Notes under the pieces: generated by a model
What the model was told of the DNA's origin: nothing
What the model saw: the letters and a program-made list of their open reading frames with translations, nothing else
Database searches by the model: none
IMG/VR virus record: IMGVR_UViG_3300026097_000029
Coordinates: 1 to 54,968 of that record
DNA length: 54,968 bases
Source of the DNA: a virus
Reading direction: 5' to 3' (one strand)
Shown: piece after piece, positions 36,517 to 54,968 of the stretch
Layout: every line of letters begins with the position of its first letter
How positions within the stretch are numbered: position 1 is the stretch's first letter
Program-made: the position numbers and the translations under genes

Positions 36517-38100
36517 ATGAGTAACATTAAAGAAGTTCGTTTCGGCTTAGATGCTAGGTCTGAAATTTTAAAAGGAGTAAACACAGTAGCAGATGCTGTA
36601 AGCTCAACTATGGGTGCAAAGGGTAGAAACGTGTTAATTGAAACACAAGGCGGTTTACCTAAAATAACAAAAGACGGAGTTACCGTATCCAAAAATATTT
36701 TTTTAGAAAGCCCATTAGAATCTTTAGGTGCAGAAATTATTAAACAAGCTGCTGAGAAAACCGTAGAAGATTGTGGGGATAGTACAACTACTACTGTTGT
36801 ATTAGCTAGGGAGCTAATGAATTTAGCAGAAGTAGAAGTAGAGAAAGGTGCACACCCTATCTTACTTAAAGAAGGTATAAGTGATGCGGTTAAACAAGTT
36901 ACAAATCATTTAAAAAGCAAAGCATTAAGGCTTAAAAAAAGAGACTACAATAATGTAGCTAGAATATCTGCAAACAACGATAAAGAATTAGGAGACACAA
37001 TAGCTAAAGCATTTAAGTTGGCAGGAAAAAATGGCGTGGTTACTTACGAGCGTTCTATGGACGAAATTACATCTGTAAAGAAAAGCAATGGTTTAAAGAT
37101 TGACAGGGGTTTACTTAATCAGTACATGGTTACTGATGAGAAAACCAACCGAATGGAATTAGAGAATCCTTACATTTTTGTTTGTAATAAAAAAATAGAA
37201 TCATTCCAACAAATTATCCCTTTGTTTAAAAAATCTAAACAAGAAGATAAATGGATTTTGATTATAGGCGAAATGGAGCGAAGTGTAGCTAACCTATTTA
37301 CTGCTAACATTATAAAACACAAACTAAAAGTAAGATTTGTAGATGCTCCGTCTTTTGGGAGTAAACGTAATGCTTTAATGGAAGATATAGCTACTGCCAC
37401 AGGCTCTATCTTAGTAAAGAATGAAGGTACAGACAATATTGAATCTGTGTGTTTAGATTACTTAGGAACTGCAAAAGGATTTACTTGTTCGGACAAAGAA
37501 TCTTTTTTAGATGTAGACAAAGAAAGATATCAAGACGCTATTGATTTAAAAGTTAACGAGTTATTAGAATTAAAAAAGAACACTAAAAAAAGCATAGCAT
37601 CTAAGTTTTTAGATGAGCGTATTGCTAAGTTAAGCTGTTCTATTGCTACCATACAAGTAGGTGCTATATCTGATGTGGAGTTAGAAGAAAAAATAGACAG
37701 AGTAGACGATGCAGTTAACGCAACTCAATCGGCAATAGAAGAAGGTGTTTTAGTTGGTGGTGGTTTAGCGTTGTTTAATGCTAGCTACAAAGTTAGTTAT
37801 AGTAATGATAATCATAAAGATTATAAGTTAGGGTTTATGATAACCATAAACGCAATCAGGAAACCCATAAAGCAAATACTTACAAATGCAGGTGCTAATG
37901 TAGACGATGTTATTTCTGAAATAGAAAACAATCAAGACGAAAACATAGGATACGATGTGCTATCTAACAAAATGGTAAATATGCTTAAAGCAGGTATTAT
38001 TGACCCACATAAAGTAATACGATGTGCATTGCAAAACGCAGCAAGTGTTTCGCAAACATTTTTATTAACAGACACATCAATTAATATAAAAAGAGCGTAA
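36517..38100 (+). CDS. groEL: Phage-encoded GroEL chaperonin, 527 aa
   Basis: A group I chaperonin of near-standard length. ATP-site motifs are visible: TMGAKGRNV (31-39, bacterial TLGPKGRNV, so Pro is Ala), ITKDGVTV (50-57), GDSTTTT (87-93, bacterial GDGTTT with Gly changed to Ser) and DRVDDAVNAT near 395, which holds the hydrolysis aspartate. The apical and equatorial segments VGGGLALF and IDPHKVIRCALQNAASV are also conserved. The usual Gly-Gly-Met tail is absent; the protein ends IKRA. It is likely a barrel folding chamber for capsid proteins. Phage GroEL is known from Pseudomonas phage EL. The order here is groEL then groES, the reverse of bacterial operons. Confidence 0.93.
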   Translation: MSNIKEVRFGLDARSEILKGVNTVADAVSSTMGAKGRNVLIETQGGLPKITKDGVTVSKNIFLESPLESLGAEIIKQAAEKTVEDCGDSTTTTVVLARELMNLAEVEVEKGAHPILLKEGISDAVKQVTNHLKSKALRLKKRDYNNVARISANNDKELGDTIAKAFKLAGKNGVVTYERSMDEITSVKKSNGLKIDRGLLNQYMVTDEKTNRMELENPYIFVCNKKIESFQQIIPLFKKSKQEDKWILIIGEMERSVANLFTANIIKHKLKVRFVDAPSFGSKRNALMEDIATATGSILVKNEGTDNIESVCLDYLGTAKGFTCSDKESFLDVDKERYQDAIDLKVNELLELKKNTKKSIASKFLDERIAKLSCSIATIQVGAISDVELEEKIDRVDDAVNATQSAIEEGVLVGGGLALFNASYKVSYSNDNHKDYKLGFMITINAIRKPIKQILTNAGANVDDVISEIENNQDENIGYDVLSNKMVNMLKAGIIDPHKVIRCALQNAASVSQTFLLTDTSINIKRA

Positions 38101-49455: not shown

Positions 49456-49479
49456 CTTTAATAAAGAACGAGTAGTGTG

Positions 49480-49610
49480 GCATAACAGCAAATAATATGG
49501 GTAGTGGCGATAAAAAGGGTTAACAGTATCGTATGCAAACCAATAACCCCGAAAAACACGGTGAAAGTCCAGTTGTTAGGCATACTTAGCCATTACCTAT
49601 ATTTATTATT
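49480..49610 (+). repeat. attC-like site 2, degenerate, long loop
   Basis: The R'' is GCATAAC (49480-49486). The arms ATATGGGTAGTGGC (49495-49508) and GCCATTACCTATAT (49589-49602) pair with two mismatches. The right box is degenerate (ATTGAATG). The 80-base loop contains a GGTGAAAGTCC, a phrase also found in group II introns, but no intron is present. Confidence 0.5.
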
Positions 49611-49627
49611 GAATGTCTTTTTTAATT

Positions 49628-49760
49628 GCATATAACGTTGAGTATATGGCAAGTAGCCGAGATAAAGCACAAACGATGCAAAAAGTAAACAAATTTAATA
49701 ACAGGCAGATGGTTCCAAAAAGACCCGTAACACGGCTATTTGCTATATACAGTGTTATGT
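49628..49760 (+). repeat. attC-like site 3 (133 bp)
   Basis: The R'' is GCATATAAC (49628-49636) and R' GTTATGT (49754-49760). Arms TATATGGCAAGTAGCCG (49643-49659) and CGGCTATTTGCTATATA (49733-49749) pair over 17 bp with two mismatched or wobble positions, and the left side has extra bases next to the box. It is preceded by a very short gene-less unit. Confidence 0.65.
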
Positions 49761-49773
49761 GGCGTTTTTAATT

Positions 49774-50016
49774 ATGGAAGTAGTAGATTTTAGTAACAGA
49801 TTATTTCACGATATACCAACACAGGACAATCCTGCTTACGGGAGTGAAGAGTGTATAATGATTGTAAAGGATAGCCAAAGACAAGCTTTATTTGCTGTAC
49901 TACATATTGAACCCGTAATAGACCCAATGGAAGACGAATCTGTTACTAAAATATGTGAGGTGTATAAACTTAATAATGCTATTAAGATTGCTAAGTGGTT
50001 CGCAAATGCCACATAA
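49774..50016 (+). CDS. Hypothetical cassette protein, 80 aa
   Basis: A longer frame begins with GTG at 49759 inside the right repeat arm, so the ATG at 49774 is taken: MEVVDFSNRLFHDIPTQDNP, then a beta segment AYGSEECIMIVKDSQRQALF and a C-terminal helix. Acidic, no known domain. The box before it (49754-49768) complements the box at its end (50003-50017), and its stop codon lies inside that box. Confidence 0.6.
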   Translation: MEVVDFSNRLFHDIPTQDNPAYGSEECIMIVKDSQRQALFAVLHIEPVIDPMEDESVTKICEVYKLNNAIKIAKWFANAT

Positions 50017-50065
50017 CATCTCGGTGCTATGAAATCGTTTTAATGTTTTATAGCACGTGTTACCC
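50011..50065 (+). repeat. attC-like site 4 (55 bp, compact)
   Basis: The R'' ACATAAC (50011-50017) overlaps the stop codon of the gene. Arms CGGTGCTATGAAA (50022-50034) and TTTTATAGCACG (50046-50057) pair with an 11-base loop. R' is GTTACCC (50059-50065). This is the size of classic integron attC sites. Confidence 0.65.
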
Positions 50066-50163
50066 ACTGGTGCGACTTTAAAGAGCAAACTTTTATTTAA
50101 GAACTGAAACTTTTTCTTTTCTTTTTTGAGCGTTGGCAAATATTAATTTGAAAAATTAAAATT

Positions 50164-50970
50164 ATGGAACAAATACAATTACACAAAGGATATTGCGAAG
50201 ATTACTTTACCCAAATACACGATAAAAGCGTAGATATGGTTCTTTGTGATTTACCTTACGGAACAACAGATTGTAAATGGGATAGTCAAATAGACTTGAC
50301 TTTTCTATTTAGCGAATATTACAGAGTGTTAAAAAAGAACGGTGCAATAGTGTTATTCGCTTCACAGCCCTTTACATCTACTTTGGTATGTGAACACGTT
50401 AAATACTTCAAGCACGAGTGGATATGGAAGAAAAACGCAGGAAGTAATTTTGGAACTGTAAAATACCAACCATTTAAAGAACACGAAAGCATACTTGTAT
50501 TTAGTAATGGAGGTGGGAAGGTTTGTTACAATCCTATAATGGAAGAACGTGCTGAAAGTGGTAAAGCGAGAGTAAAGACCAAGGTTAATTATAATACAAG
50601 TGCAGAAGTTTACGGAAGTGGTGGATTAATAGGCGATAAAGGAATAAGTAGTAATAGACCTGATTTAAGATACCCAAGTAGTGTACAGAAATTTAATAGA
50701 GAGCGAGGGTTACACCCAACACAAAAACCACTTGACTTGATAGAGTACTTAATTAAAACTTACTCTAACGAAGGCGAATTGATACTTGATAATACAATGG
50801 GAAGCGGTACTACTGGTGTTGGTTGTGTAAATACAAATAGACGATTTATAGGTATTGAGTTAGAAGATAAGTATTTTTCTATTGCAGAAGAACGAGTAAA
50901 AAAAGCGTGGGAAGAAAAAAGAAAAGAAAAAGATTTACAAGCACAAACTTTATTTGGAACACAGAAGTAA
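50164..50970 (+). CDS. DNA N6/N4 methyltransferase with DLPYG motif (cassette gene), 268 aa
   Basis: The protein has 268 residues. A catalytic motif IV DLPYG (29-33, DPPY variant with Leu) comes first, then a variable region, HPTQKPLDLIEYLIKTYS and motif I-like LDNTMGSGTTGVGC, with FIGIELEDKYFSIAEERV at the C-terminus. Family and order match the second methyltransferase at 795-1442, but the two share only these motifs, so they are separate genes. It is not paired with a nuclease. Its leader holds GAGCGTTGGCAAATATT, related to the flanking repeat of the gene at 54008. Confidence 0.9.
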   Translation: MEQIQLHKGYCEDYFTQIHDKSVDMVLCDLPYGTTDCKWDSQIDLTFLFSEYYRVLKKNGAIVLFASQPFTSTLVCEHVKYFKHEWIWKKNAGSNFGTVKYQPFKEHESILVFSNGGGKVCYNPIMEERAESGKARVKTKVNYNTSAEVYGSGGLIGDKGISSNRPDLRYPSSVQKFNRERGLHPTQKPLDLIEYLIKTYSNEGELILDNTMGSGTTGVGCVNTNRRFIGIELEDKYFSIAEERVKKAWEEKRKEKDLQAQTLFGTQK

Positions 50971-50978
50971 GCACTTGT

Positions 50979-51220
50979 TGGTAACACTATGGTTATATGA
51001 GTAGTTTATTTACGGATTTAAAAATAGAAATATGAAAACAGTTTTAATACATTATAAAAAATGGGTAGAAGCACCGCACCCAATGTTAGACGGTGAATTT
51101 ATTAAATGTAGCCAAGTGGTCGAAGTATTAAAGCTGACTGACCTAAATGATATGTTTAAAAATATAACTAAGATTGAAATACTAAGCGAGTAAATGAATT
51201 ACTTATATGACGTGTTGTGT
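50979..51220 (+). repeat. attC-like site 5 with an ORF in its loop (242 bp)
   Basis: The R'' is TGGTAAC (50979-50985) and R' GTTGTGT (51214-51220). Arms TATATGAGTAGTTTATTTAC (50994-51013) and GTAAATGAATTACTTATAT (51190-51208) pair with few mismatches. The loop of about 176 bases holds the 53-residue ORF at 51032-51193, whose stop codon is already inside the right arm. Confidence 0.6.
51032..51193 (+). CDS. Short ORF inside a hairpin loop, 53 aa
   Basis: A frame of 53 residues: MKTVLIHYKKWVEAPHPMLD, then GEFIKCSQVVEVLKLTDLND and MFKNITKIEILSE. It has a good ATG context after an A-rich leader. It begins in the loop of site 5 and ends in its right arm, so it moves with the hairpin. No domain recognised. 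Confidence 0.5.
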   Translation: MKTVLIHYKKWVEAPHPMLDGEFIKCSQVVEVLKLTDLNDMFKNITKIEILSE

Positions 51221-51253
51221 GTAGTACGGGCAAATAAGCAAAAACTTTGAATT

Positions 51254-51802
51254 ATGAAATTAGATTTAATTACAAACAAAGCAGAAAAAACAACTGCACG
51301 AAATGAAAATGATGAGTTCTATACTCCAAATTATGCAATAGAGCCTTTGTTAAAATATTTAAAACCTAATAGTTATGTATGGTGTCCTTTTGATTTGGCG
51401 AAAAGTAACTTTGTAAAACTATTAGTTGCAAATGGGCATAAGGTTTTAAATACGCACATCGAAAACGGTTTTGACTTTTTTGAATATGAGCCACCAAGTG
51501 AAATTGATTACATAATAAGTAATCCGCCTTACTCACTAAAACATGAAGTATTTAGCAAACTGTTTGAATTAGGAAAACCATTTGCAATGCTTGTAGGTGT
51601 TGTTGGATTGTTTGAAAGCCAAAAAAGATTTACAATGTTTGCGGACAATGATTTTGAAATAATGTATTTTGATAAGCGAGTAAGTTACTTTAAGGATTAC
51701 GCAGACGTAAAGCCAAAACTTAACCCACCGTTTTCGAGTGTATTTTTAACAAAGGATATACTACCTAAACAAGTTGTTTTTGAAAGGATAACTAAAAAGT
51801 AG
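51254..51802 (+). CDS. NPPY-type methyltransferase (cassette gene), 182 aa
   Basis: The protein has 182 residues. Motif IV ISNPPYS (near residues 98-104) is that of gamma-class DNA adenine methyltransferases of the M.TaqI type. The SAM-binding motif I seems weak (VWCPFDLAKSNFVKLLVANG at about 42-61, with a Pro-Phe-Asp in place of Gly-x-Gly), so activity should be tested. Annotations of such phage proteins as sugar-phosphate nucleotidyltransferase are common and doubtful. The box before (51214-51228) and after (51801-51815) it are reverse complements in 12 of about 14 bases. Confidence 0.7.
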   Translation: MKLDLITNKAEKTTARNENDEFYTPNYAIEPLLKYLKPNSYVWCPFDLAKSNFVKLLVANGHKVLNTHIENGFDFFEYEPPSEIDYIISNPPYSLKHEVFSKLFELGKPFAMLVGVVGLFESQKRFTMFADNDFEIMYFDKRVSYFKDYADVKPKLNPPFSSVFLTKDILPKQVVFERITKK

Positions 51803-51808
51803 TATTAC

Positions 51809-51902
51809 TCACAACGGTAGGTATATGGTTAGTGCGCCTACCACAAACGATTGAATTAAGCACTAACATAACTTGGCGCATTAACTATATACATTGTTGT
51901 GT
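51809..51902 (+). repeat. attC-like site 6 (94 bp), best-formed arms
   Basis: The R'' TCACAAC (51809-51815) and R' GTTGTGT (51896-51902) are near-perfect complements. Arms GTATATGGTTAGTGCGCC (51821-51838) and GGCGCATTAACTATATAC (51875-51892) pair over 18 bp with two wobbles; the left side has two extra bases next to the box. Confidence 0.7.
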
Positions 51903-51920
51903 GCCGTTAATTTTAAGGAT

Positions 51921-52184
51921 ATGTTGAATATAGAAGCGGAAGGTTTTGTATTTAAGTATGAAGAAAAAGGCAATCATAACAAAGCCTACACAAAGCCGTA
52001 CACAAATCACTCAAGAGGGTATTCGGATAGAATGATTGATGTTATTTATAATGACAAAAACAATTGGGTATTAATTTGCCAAGGAGATGATGAAACCCCT
52101 TGGGGTGATTGGGAAACAATGTTTGCTGGACAAATACAAAACCAACAAGATTTTAAAAAAGTGCTTGAAATGGTCATCGTTTAA
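51921..52184 (+). CDS. Hypothetical cassette protein, 87 aa
   Basis: The longer frame begins with TTG at 51894 within the repeat arm, so the ATG at 51921 is taken, with an AAGGA-like signal just before it: MLNIEAEGFVFKYEEKG, then SRGYSDRMIDVIYNDKNNWV and CQGDDETPWGDWETMFAGQI. Acidic, Trp-rich, no known domain. The boxes before (51896-51910) and after (52181-52195) it are complementary in 14 of 15 bases. Confidence 0.6.
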   Translation: MLNIEAEGFVFKYEEKGNHNKAYTKPYTNHSRGYSDRMIDVIYNDKNNWVLICQGDDETPWGDWETMFAGQIQNQQDFKKVLEMVIV

Positions 52185-52188
52185 TGGC

Positions 52189-52319
52189 ACACAACGGCTC
52201 AGTATAAAAAATCGTAGCGGATAGATACCGCTTAAATGTCAAATTATAAATAACTTAATAAAATGGAACAAACATCGAATAACAGAAACCCCCGCTATGT
52301 TTTTTATACATTGTTGGCG
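52189..52319 (+). repeat. attC-like site 7 (131 bp)
   Basis: The R'' is ACACAAC (52189-52195) and R' GTTGGCG (52313-52319). Arms GTATAAAAAATCGTAGCGG (52202-52220) and CCGCTATGTTTTTTATAC (52292-52309) pair nearly fully. An in-frame ATG (52263) lies in the loop and reads out through the right arm. Confidence 0.65.
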
Positions 52320-52463
52320 GTAGTGCTTTTAATTACTGCCTGTTCGGGTGATAGCGAAAGTAGCTCACAATTTTCTGAATGGCTTAAACAACCGATAACA
52401 GAAATGAGCATATTTGAATTGATATTGGTTGTAGGTTTTGTTGGACTGCTTACACGGTCTTAG
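52263..52463 (+). CDS. Possible lipoprotein, 66 aa, starts in a hairpin loop
   Basis: From the ATG at 52263 the frame reads MEQTSNNRNPRYVFYTLLAV then VLLITACSGDSESSSQ. LLITACSG is a short lipobox, so the mature protein would begin at Cys27, with a Ser/Asp tail and a C-terminal membrane helix (FELILVVGFVGLL). The first 20 residues lie in the loop and right arm of site 7; a GTG start at 52323 would leave only the lipobox part. Which start is used is open. Complementary boxes flank 52313-52476. Confidence 0.45.
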   Translation: MEQTSNNRNPRYVFYTLLAVVLLITACSGDSESSSQFSEWLKQPITEMSIFELILVVGFVGLLTRS

Positions 52464-52469
52464 CATTAC

Positions 52470-52590
52470 CGCCAACGTAATTGTATATGGTGCGTTGCAT
52501 CACAAAATTTAATTAATAAAAATAAAGATAATGGAAGTAGAAGAACGATATAAAAAACCACAAGGCAATGCACTATATACATTGTTAGCA
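52470..52590 (+). repeat. attC-like site 8 (121 bp)
   Basis: The R'' is CGCCAAC (52470-52476) and R' GTTAGCA (52584-52590). Arms TGTATATGGTGCGTTGC (52482-52498) and GCAATGCACTATATACA (52565-52581) pair with few wobbles. An ATG at 52531 in the loop reads through the right arm into the following gene. Confidence 0.65.
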
Positions 52591-52740
52591 GCAGTTAAAC
52601 TTGCTTATGGGCAATACAAACTTGATGTGGACTACGTAAAAAATAAAAGTAATATATGGGAAGGGAAGCCATATAGTTGGGGATTAACTCATTGGGCAAT
52701 AGCAAAACATAGGTTCTATTGGTTTGTCATTAAACGCTAA
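52531..52740 (+). CDS. Hypothetical cassette protein starting in a hairpin loop, 69 aa
   Basis: From the loop ATG the frame reads MEVEERYKKPQGNALYTLLA and continues AVKLAYGQYKLDVDYVKNKS, ending with an aromatic stretch (HRFYWFVIKR). The YTLLA part lies in the arm and parallels YTLLAVV of the neighbouring cassette. Without the loop start, only a TTG in the box could start it. The boxes before (52584-52598) and after (52737-52751) it are complementary. Function unknown. Confidence 0.5.
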   Translation: MEVEERYKKPQGNALYTLLAAVKLAYGQYKLDVDYVKNKSNIWEGKPYSWGLTHWAIAKHRFYWFVIKR

Positions 52741-52744
52741 TTGC

Positions 52745-52809
52745 TGCTAACGGACGAGTATATGCGAAGTGCTGACGATAGGAAGCATTGCGTATATACA
52801 TTGTTAGGT
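52745..52809 (+). repeat. attC-like site 9 (65 bp, compact)
   Basis: The R'' is TGCTAAC (52745-52751) and R' GTTAGGT (52803-52809), a GTTRRRY box. Arms GTATATGCGAAGTGCT (52758-52773) and AGCATTGCGTATATAC (52784-52799) pair with a 10-base loop and extra bases on the left side. It resembles classic attC sites in size and layout. Confidence 0.7.
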
Positions 52810-52841
52810 GCAGTACGGTATTAATATAACAAAACTAAAAT

Positions 52842-53606
52842 ATGAAACAAACAGAATTATTCTTATTTGACAAAGTAGTGAACATTGACGGAGATGTAGC
52901 GAAATTCAAAAACCGAGAGATAAAAGCAAAAGAAATCTTTACTATACGTGAGATTGACAAGAAAATAGCTTACGCATTTATTAAACAATACCACTACTTA
53001 AAAGATGCTAAGTTCTTTGCAAAATATTCTTATGGACTTTATATTGATAATGTACTAGTTGGCTGCTCTACTTTTAGCAACCCACAAGGTATAAGTGCAA
53101 TGAAAAGTTGGTTTGGATTACCTAATAGCGACCAAAGTGTATTAGAACTTAGCAGACTGTGTATGTTACCTAAACTTAATGGTACAAACGCAACAAGCTA
53201 TTTACTTGGCAATAGTATGAAGATGCTAAAACAAAAGGAAGTTAAGGCTGTAATTACATTAGCTGATGATAGTAGGCACGTTGGAAGTATTTACCAAGTT
53301 TGCAATTTTAAATACTATGGCTTAACTGATAAAAAAACTGATTTCTTTTGTGCTGATGGTAGAGTGAACCCAAGAGGCAAAACAAAGGATTTAGAAGGTG
53401 TTTGGCTACCAAGAACACAAAAGCATAGATACGCTTTTTTATTGGATAAGAAAATGAATGTTTTGCTGAGTGAGAGTGAACGACCTACACTTGAAGATAC
53501 AAGCGAATATGATTGCTGTAACGGAACTAATAAGGTTTTTGATAAGCGATTTAATAAGCACTACACTTGCCCAAAATGCACAGGTGTAATTGAAGAACTA
53601 ATGTAG
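52842..53606 (+). CDS. Mom-like DNA modification protein with zinc-ribbon tail (cassette gene), 254 aa
   Basis: The protein has 254 residues. Its GNAT-like core has YSYGLYIDNVLVGCSTFSNP (63-82), ELSRLCMLP (102-110), LADDSRHVGSIYQVCNFKYY (140-159) and KHRYAFLL (194-201). This pattern resembles the Mom family of phage Mu, which converts adenine to N6-carbamoylmethyladenine and protects phage DNA. The C-terminal part has Cys pairs at 225-226 and 243/246 in a CxxC pattern (YDCCNGTNK ... YTCPKCTG), like a DnaJ-type zinc ribbon, absent from Mom itself. Boxes at 52803-52817 and 53605-53619 are complementary. Confidence 0.7.
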   Translation: MKQTELFLFDKVVNIDGDVAKFKNREIKAKEIFTIREIDKKIAYAFIKQYHYLKDAKFFAKYSYGLYIDNVLVGCSTFSNPQGISAMKSWFGLPNSDQSVLELSRLCMLPKLNGTNATSYLLGNSMKMLKQKEVKAVITLADDSRHVGSIYQVCNFKYYGLTDKKTDFFCADGRVNPRGKTKDLEGVWLPRTQKHRYAFLLDKKMNVLLSESERPTLEDTSEYDCCNGTNKVFDKRFNKHYTCPKCTGVIEELM

Positions 53607-53612
53607 TATTGC

Positions 53613-53640
53613 ACCTAACTGGTCGGTGATAACGCTAGTT
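53613..53640 (+). repeat. Truncated attC-like site (28 bp)
   Basis: The R'' is ACCTAAC (53613-53619) and the R' GCTAGTT (53634-53640) has C where T is usual. Only AACTGG/CTAGTT pairs remain, so the long arms have been lost. It is still the right box for the following gene, whose end box at 53922-53928 complements GTTAGTT. Confidence 0.5.
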
Positions 53641-53671
53641 GCGATGGATTAATAAACTAAAAATAAAAAAA

Positions 53672-53917
53672 ATGGATATAGATAAAATAGTAGATAGCAA
53701 AGTGATAACAATGACTAATTTAAGCGGTAAAAAATCAAAAGTGCTATTTCTTAAAAACGAAACTGAAATAGAAGCATTTAAAGAGCAATTAGCGTTATTA
53801 CGTGTTAGTTGCCAAAGGGAACAGTTAAAGGCGTTCGGTGAAATTATAGCACAAAAAATGCATAATGGAGAAGAATTCAATTTAACAAAAGAAGTAGAAA
53901 ACTTTATTAGCCTTTAA
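53672..53917 (+). CDS. Hypothetical cassette protein, 81 aa
   Basis: A longer frame begins with TTG in the box at 53639; the ATG at 53672 with its A-rich leader is taken: MDIDKIVDSKVITMTNLSGK, then KSKVLFLKNETEIEAFKEQL and a Glu/Leu-rich helix. Small, helical, no known domain. Its stop precedes the next box by four bases. Confidence 0.55.
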   Translation: MDIDKIVDSKVITMTNLSGKKSKVLFLKNETEIEAFKEQLALLRVSCQREQLKAFGEIIAQKMHNGEEFNLTKEVENFISL

Positions 53918-53921
53918 TTGC

Positions 53922-54833
53922 AACTAACGTATTGGTATATGGTTAGTGCCGTGTAAATAGCACAGACTTTTAAATTAATAAAAGAAGTAATAATTAAAAT
54001 ATTTTTTATGAGCGTGGGCAAAAAATATAAAGTAGTTGAAGTAACTTTAAATGATATAGAAGAATGGCTATTGTATAAGCACTATGCCAAAAGAAAATGC
54101 AATGTAATGTTTGCTTATGCTTTAGTTGATAATAATGAAATTATTGGTGTTTGTACTTTAGGTATGCCACCTACTCCATTTTTTAGTAAATTGTTTGATA
54201 AAGGGACTTACTTAGAATTAAACAGACTAATAACAAATGATGGTCTACCTAAAAATACACTTTCTTTTTTTGTCGCAAATATTTTAAATAAGATAGGTGA
54301 TTATGTGGTTGTTTCTTATTCTGACCCAAATAACGGACATAATGGATATATTTATCAAGCTACTAATTGGATTTATACTGGTGCAGGTAGGGTAAACCAA
54401 AAAGACAAAAGAGGTGTAAATAAGTTTTTTTACAATGGTAAAGAATACCACGAAAGGCATATACCAGAAACAATGTCAAGATTAGGATTTAATATAGATA
54501 ATGATAAAACAAAAAACGAAAATTGGATAAATAACGGTGGTGAGATAGTACCACAAAAAAGAAAACATAGGTATTTTTATATTTGCGGTAATAAAAGGTT
54601 TGTAAAAAAGAACAAGAAAATAATAGAAAATTATTTTGACATTTACAATTACCCAAAAGAAGAGAATACAAACTATGATGCAAGTTATATTGTAAAAAAC
54701 AAATATATAAAACCTAAATTGTTTTGATAAAAACAAAAGAGCGTGGGCAAAAAAATATTTTAATTATGGACAAACAGACACAAATTATTGAATTAAGCAC
54801 GGACTTAGGCATTAACTATATGCCGTGTTGTAG
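53922..54833 (+). repeat. attC-like site with a gene in its loop (912 bp)
   Basis: The R'' is AACTAAC (53922-53928) with left arm GTATATGGTTAGTGCC (53935-53950). The matching right arm GGCATTAACTATATGC lies at 54808-54823, with R' GTTGTAG (54827-54833). The loop of about 850 bases holds the Mom-like gene 54008-54727, which is bordered by direct repeats GAGCGTGGGCAAAAAATAT at 54010-54027 (18 of the unit) and 54739-54758 (one extra A). Confidence 0.55.
54008..54727 (+). CDS. Second Mom-like DNA modification protein (in a hairpin loop), 239 aa
   Basis: The protein has 239 residues. Its core has VMFAYALVDNNEIIGVCTLG (33-52), YLELNRLITNDGLPKNTLSF (68-87), VSYSDPNNGHNGYIYQATNW (102-121) and KHRYFYICG (186-194). 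The E-L-x-R-L, D-x-x-x-G-H-x-G-x-I-Y-Q and K-H-R-Y landmarks match the gene at 52842 and the Mom family; the closing zinc ribbon is missing. The two proteins are diverged, so they are not a recent duplication. The gene lies in the loop of a long hairpin, and its start lies in a direct repeat. Confidence 0.7.
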   Translation: MSVGKKYKVVEVTLNDIEEWLLYKHYAKRKCNVMFAYALVDNNEIIGVCTLGMPPTPFFSKLFDKGTYLELNRLITNDGLPKNTLSFFVANILNKIGDYVVVSYSDPNNGHNGYIYQATNWIYTGAGRVNQKDKRGVNKFFYNGKEYHERHIPETMSRLGFNIDNDKTKNENWINNGGEIVPQKRKHRYFYICGNKRFVKKNKKIIENYFDIYNYPKEENTNYDASYIVKNKYIKPKLF

Positions 54834-54855
54834 CATCGTTTTAATGTGCTACAAC
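54827..54855 (+). repeat. Gene-less minimal cassette
   Basis: GTTGTAGCA and TGCTACAAC face each other with 11 bases between, so the complementary end boxes of one cassette lie almost together and no gene can fit. The left arm of the next site follows (54851-54870). Confidence 0.5.
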
Positions 54856-54870
54856 ACCGAATAACAAAAC
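54851..54870 (+). repeat. attC-like left arm whose partner is at the left window end
   Basis: ACAACACCGAATAACAAAAC lacks a right arm in the window. It pairs with the reverse complement of 139-160 (about 14 of 17 positions after allowing one gap), like the other sites. This joins the two window ends. Confidence 0.45.
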
Positions 54871-54888
54871 ATTAAAAACATTAACCCT

Positions 54889-54968
54889 ATGAAACTACTT
54901 GAAAACGTTGCGGAAAGATATATTGAAAGTTCTAATAAAGGAGCAATAAATTATACAGATGAGCTTAA
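54889..54968 (+). CDS. 5' part of a small hypothetical protein
   Basis: From the ATG at 54889 the frame reads MKLLENVAERYIESSNKGAI then NYTDEL and runs off the window in codon 27. It lies in the loop of the end-spanning hairpin. Joined directly to base 1 it would meet TAA after one more residue; with one missing base it would run on into the 44-residue frame at 1-135. Confidence 0.5.
   Translation, partial: MKLLENVAERYIESSNKGAINYTDEL

Follow-up and report, generated by a model that had tools for sequence, protein, structure and literature searches.

Clusters of attC sites in virulent phages, known as CALINs, have been described, and attC sites in the phage P12002L have been assayed with IntI1 (PMC9892861). 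The attC sites of Vibrio cholerae, the VCRs, carry a terminal structure of 65 nt (PMC2727003). The array reported here shares several features with integron attC arrays and phage CALINs: its sites have R and L boxes and a spacer that stays unpaired, the R boxes flanking a cassette are complementary, breakpoints fall at G|TT (AA|C on the opposite strand), DNA methylases are among the cargo and the phage lacks an integrase. Like the VCR sites, its sites can carry a long and variable terminal structure atop the stem. The VCR structure is far shorter than the gene-bearing loops found here, and the accessible part of that paper describes no gene in it (PMC2727003). Four other features set this array apart from integron attC sites. 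The genes run away from the site, ORFs start in or sit within the hairpin loop, which reaches up to ~1100 nt, G.T wobbles at positions 7 and 12 replace the extrahelical bases of the L arm, and the GTTRRRY core is not strictly kept in the window sites.

An array of hairpin sites in a phage genome

The window, which is the whole stretch of 54,968 nucleotides that was analysed, is one IMG/VR virus record. Positions are those of the window, and its numbered sites, their ORFs, the cassette genes and the repeats discussed below are on the plus strand. The array of hairpin sites begins at 49634 and continues up to the end of the window, and further sites of this kind are found near the window start (692-758 and a half-site at 1453). 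In a complete site, two arms enclose a loop. An AAC box and a left spacer of 5-7 nt precede the first arm, and a right spacer of 2-4 nt and a GTT box follow the second, the two spacers forming the unpaired central spacer between the R and L stems. By sequence, the window holds 10 complete sites and no phage integrase, the search for tyrosine recombinases with PF00589 having returned 0 matches in the window, and this combination is that of a CALIN. GTTR was present in 11/11 R' boxes and the full GTTRRRY in one of them, so the boxes depart from the attC core-box consensus. An Rfam search matched no family. Since simple pattern scans for arms gave no excess above chance, paired-arm scoring was adopted. 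A stem-and-spacer scan of 103 AT-rich loci found 67 sites with loops below 500 nt compared to 1 in Markov-shuffled copies, and 9 sites with loops of 500-1300 nt compared to 2 in shuffled copies. The region is an integron-like cassette array of the CALIN type, with swappable DNA-modification genes, in a marine bacterial virus. The carrier is probably a phage of the Flavobacteriales (Bacteroidota).

Short loops were seen in site 1 (49634-49756; CM R1 81.5 bits, training row; relatives in L008 and L069), site 4 (51813-51898; loop of 44 nt; homologs in eight other contigs, with different genes on both sides), site 7 (52749-52805; CM R1 52 bits, training row) and site 11 (692-758; CM R1 46.6 bits, training row). 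Site 2 (50015-50061; CM R1 21.4 bits, E=0.027) is a short site with cassette boxes and TCGTTTTAATG as its apical loop. Three further sites have an ORF that runs from the loop across the right arm: site 5 (52193-52315; CM R1 38.3 bits, E=3.8e-6; ORF 52263-52463), site 6 (52474-52586; CM R1 64.2 bits; ORF 52531-52740) and site 8 (53617-53806; found by stem scan, loop ~146 nt; ORF 53672-53917). A left half-site at 1453-1478 stands at the array end, and 1437-1478 is 83% identical to 54839-54878. The ordinary cassette genes encode an N6/N4 DNA methylase (50164-50970; PF01555, E=5.9e-31), an EcoRI-methylase-like protein (51254-51802; PF13651, E=1e-5, just below cut-off) and a Mom-family protein (52842-53606; PF25680, E=2.2e-27). 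Near the window start, the cassette genes encode a methylase-like protein (198-680; PF01555, E=0.0024, below cut-off) and an N6/N4 DNA methylase (795-1442; PF01555, E=2.3e-16).

Also, a weak and perhaps decayed site lies at the left end of the array (49474-49615; 20.6 bits, E=0.041). The contig L005, which is identical to the window over the array stretch, stops at window position 1485, the array edge. Elsewhere, the phage has a GroEL-like chaperonin gene (36517-38100; phrog_5725).

Cassette boundaries and polarity

Complementary R boxes at the ends of a cassette are a known sign of integron cassettes. In the window, the R' and R'' boxes flanking one cassette had a mean complementary run of 11.2 nt, compared to 4.8 nt for the boxes within a site and 4.6 nt for non-partners. 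Neighbouring box pairs in chromosomal arrays were complementary over at least 9 nt in 29/58 cases, compared to 3.6% of random pairs.

The boundaries are also visible as differences between related genomes. Between the Flavobacterium phages mumin6-1 and mumin6-3, the difference is a cassette of ~500 bases joined at AAC|G, and AAC|G junctions were found as well in the filifjonk, tooticki and mymlan pairs and between P12002L and P12002S, all isolate phages of Flavobacterium or Polaribacter. The Polaribacter phage P12002L carries sites of the same consensus as the window. One P12002L/P12002S difference joins within the L arm and not at AAC. In L009 and L157, too, the cassette junctions fit G|TT, which reads AA|C on the opposite strand, and the members of the site-4 family in the eight other contigs share a sharp start at AAC, the hairpin and the sequence up to the start codon of differing genes. 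Because the breakpoints fall at AAC|G, the left edge of the site, the mobile unit is a site followed by a gene. Judged from these junctions, its polarity is opposite to that of usual integrons, with the site preceding the gene. An ORF within the loop, or one that reads from the loop through the right arm, would thus travel whole, and it is this reverse polarity that allows genes to sit inside the loop of a recombination site or to read through its arm.

The arms vary in a manner that keeps them paired. In a 15-row alignment of short sites, both-side changes were seen in 13/23 pairs and a G.U was kept at two positions in every lettered row, and the wobbles at positions 7 and 12 recur in most straddling and nested sites. 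A permutation test of the nested arms, in which two sites are out of register, reached the observed score in 8/50000 shuffles. The coding-strand hairpin was more stable than that of the opposite strand in 30/30 sites. From the position of the breakpoint, the coding strand is the counterpart of the attC bottom strand, and it is presumably the strand that is recombined.

This stability, together with the placement of the hairpins just before start codons or around them, could also be expected of transcription terminators or mRNA regulatory elements that are not recombination sites. The idea has very little chance of being right, since it is largely refuted by the sharp indel breakpoints at AAC|G, and the complementarity of the cassette boxes and the arrays with a recombinase at one end also argue against it. 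The hairpins may have a second role in expression. As a separate observation, a unit of two cassettes is duplicated in tandem on the minus strand of L157 (240-1420 and 2170-3360), with the edges of the duplication at the AAC box.

Genes nested in hairpin loops

The initial annotation of this sequence had placed genes between far-apart hairpin arms at three positions, and two of these cases hold, at sites 3 and 9. In site 3 (50983-51216), an AAC box and a 6-nt spacer lead into the first arm, and GT and a GTT box follow the second arm beyond the loop. The two arms (50992-51013 and 51190-51211) make up a stem of 22 bp with four G.T wobbles around a 53-aa ORF (51032-51193; no match in Pfam), the stop codon of which touches the right arm. 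As a single strand of 251 nt, the site has a minimum-free-energy fold that pairs the outer arms, with a total fold energy that is not below that of shuffles (z -0.9). An ORF of 53 aa that is 85% identical is also nested in L173, where the arms differ yet still pair, and this relative bears out the nested position.

Site 9 (53926-54829) has an AAC box, an arm at 53935-53950, a loop of ~857 nt, an arm at 54808-54823, CGT and a GTT box, and its stem carries G.T wobbles at positions 7 and 12. The minimum-free-energy fold of 929 nt around it pairs its ends (z -1.65, not exceptional). The loop holds a Mom-family DNA modification gene (54008-54727; PF25680, E=1.9e-24), and the proposal that this gene lies between distant arms was confirmed by the loop, by the fold and by L019, in which a Mom gene 95% identical is nested between arms that have changed but remain complementary. 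In L020, a related Mom gene (protein 78% identical) is placed between sites and not nested.

The third case was a gene thought to be split across the window ends inside a hairpin, with the left half of a possible site 10 and an ORF start at 54889 (54853-54968) and the supposed right half at 130-157. This case is not supported: when the window ends were joined, the gene was one base out of frame and the arms paired poorly, and a search for relatives of the supposed gene found none.

For sites 3 and 9, no closer partners of the arms were found in the minimum-energy folds, where the outer arms pair with each other. Short-loop relatives do exist, namely the site-4 family in eight other contigs, and the right half of the site 9 type in L009 is 81% identical to this family over 59 nt. 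The suggestion that the gene becomes part of the recombination site was right in that the nesting is real, but nesting is not the sole arrangement, and the site and its gene together make up one cassette, where the gene may follow the site, run across the right arm or be enclosed in the loop.

The same site type exchanges its loop gene. The halves of site 9 surround an MTase gene in L009 and L157, a PAPS-reductase-like gene in L013 and a second Mom gene in L160 (the two Mom forms are 38% identical). Different R'' boxes precede the same site 9 element in L013, L019, L157, L160 and the window, and the copy in L009 belongs to a GC-rich phage. L009 resembles an insertion of two cassettes whose left edge coincides with the nested site; a search for the exact empty target found none, and the insertion is therefore drawn from one contig. 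The nested left half had no match in a search of genome contigs.

The giant-loop sites could be inactive deletion relics, two half-sites that happen to share arms, with the genes moving by homologous recombination between conserved flanks. The right arm of the giant-loop site in L160 has a one-base deletion, so some of these sites may be dead, the conservation of the flanks around swapped genes would suffice for homologous exchange, and the P12002 difference that joins within the L arm fits as well. We regard this as unlikely for the giant-loop sites in general, since compensating changes keep the arms complementary around the same gene in L019 and L173, and since the site 9 element follows different R'' boxes in the five sequences named above and has a copy in the GC-rich phage L009. 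To judge by sequence, the giant-loop sites probably recombine.

A gene-less interval, R'-TCGTTTTAATG-R'', follows site 9 (54827-54855) with 10 nt of complementarity, and the same form recurs in L009, L013, L019, L157 and L160. TCGTTTTAATG is an apical loop common to different hairpins, in the window (54836-54846 and 50000-50060), P12002L, L009, L013, L157 and L160.

Direct repeats around the loop gene

The direct repeat that had been noticed around the gene at 54008 is real. Three copies of GAGCGTKGGCAAA, at 50128, 54010 and 54739, compare with 0.05 expected by chance, and in the repeat count GAGCGTGGGCAAA is found at the Mom gene start (54010-54022) and after the gene (54739-54751). In the window, L055, L087, L107 and others, GAGCGTKGGCAAA is found again where cassette genes begin and immediately ahead of R'' boxes, often preceded by a small hairpin.

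The repeat had been taken as the mark of an insertion into a pre-existing loop, in which a separate element would have brought in the gene by means of GAGCGTGGGCAAA. In keeping with this idea, GAGCGTGGGCAAA lies on both sides of the swapped genes in L009 as well as in the window, where it far exceeds its chance frequency. We consider it decidedly improbable and not the best reading, since GAGCGTGGGCAAA also flanks ordinary cassette genes in L157, often stands before R'' boxes elsewhere and is degenerate in its left copy in L160. No empty loop with a single GAGCGTGGGCAAA copy was seen in a small search. A second repeat, derived from the loop, lies on both sides of the Mom gene, and its motif occurs in short sites too. 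Because both sides of the gene carry this loop motif of short sites, a fusion of two half-sites is suggested instead.

Recombinase genes beside chromosomal arrays

Among 148 genomes sampled from the order to which the Flavobacteriales MAG G001 belongs, 36 matched the site model, often as arrays, and 17 chromosomal stretches were fetched for array inspection. Eight arrays had a downstream tyrosine recombinase on the opposite strand (L190, L191-L193, L194, L195-L196, L201, L202, L203 and L206), and further cases, read by eye from two position tables with no computed control, bring the total to at least 13 arrays, the recombinase lying at the same end each time and pointing the opposite way. In G042, the recombinase has the other orientation, and several site-bearing genomes had no recombinase match on the same contig.

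The array-side recombinase has ~380-410 aa (the L203 copy is cut by the stretch end). XerA-like copies lie at 14887-16110 in L190, 6153-7313 in L193, 17561-18745 in L194, 6772-7905 in L196, 14060-15214 in L201, 3385-4551 in L202 and 13030-14172 in L206. Like IntI, this protein is a tyrosine recombinase at one end of chromosomal arrays and keeps the R, K, HxxR, H and Y residues. Unlike IntI, it has an extra N-terminal domain, is nearer to XerA/XerC-like proteins, is without the integron-integrase insertion and falls below the cut-off of TIGR02249 (192 bits in two pieces compared to 265, the split hits leaving model positions 178-240 uncovered). No phage copy over the integron-integrase cut-off was found in the records searched. 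A search of 196 genomes with TIGR02249 at E 1e-60 gave no match, but the controls also gave none. No report of an XerA-like array recombinase was found in the open-access literature, subscription papers being outside the search. The XerA-like recombinase beside the arrays is likely the enzyme that acts on the sites.

At a probability of roughly 70%, we favor a model in which the window region is an integron-like phage array of site-then-gene units, with loops that hold genes and arose by fusion, served by the XerA-like enzyme of Flavobacteriales. Each site would fold, as single-stranded DNA, into a hairpin in which an unpaired spacer separates the outer R stem from an inner L stem that bears two G.T wobbles. 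Units would be joined by site-specific recombination at AA|C as read on the coding strand, or G|TT on its complement, each unit running from spacer to hairpin, gene and the next R'' box. Since the hairpin precedes the gene in such a unit, its loop could hold a start codon or a whole extra gene and not be cut by recombination. Gene-bearing loops would probably come from the fusion of two neighboring sites with compatible arms, in which the right half of one site and the left half of the next are lost. The phage has no recognisable recombinase, and a host-encoded XerA-like recombinase would likely act in its place. The cargo of DNA methylases and Mom proteins probably shields phage DNA from restriction.

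We lean slightly toward a broader reading, in which Flavobacteriales have an integron-like system of their own, with an XerA-like recombinase that has an extra N-terminal domain, cassettes of reverse polarity and wobble-marked sites, that is shared with lytic phages, the phage loop being a second slot for exchangeable DNA-modification genes. Phage cassette clusters would gain a probable enzyme and a host reservoir, and phages a route to swap DNA-modification genes. Tools that expect a short attC and IntI may call such arrays integrase-less or miss giant sites.

Loop genes beyond the window

A crude ORF rule (at least 35 aa, with the start inside the loop) was applied to the sites of the phage and related contigs. 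By this rule, 35 ORFs cross the right arm and 14 lie inside loops, some of them by chance. Two nested-gene candidates in chromosomal arrays were rejected as a probable chance or transposase-like ORF, so no clear nested gene was left outside phages in the 17 stretches viewed. No account of genes in attC loops turned up in a search of the open-access literature, which did not extend to subscription papers, and we judge the gene-bearing loops to be a new feature against known integron cassettes. Sites with related sequence but no loop gene exist, and the genes exchanged within one site type comprise the two Mom forms, the MTase and the PAPS-reductase-like gene. Annotated genes that start or lie in loops include the HNH gene gp59 of P12002L and the methylase gene gp006 of mumin6-1.
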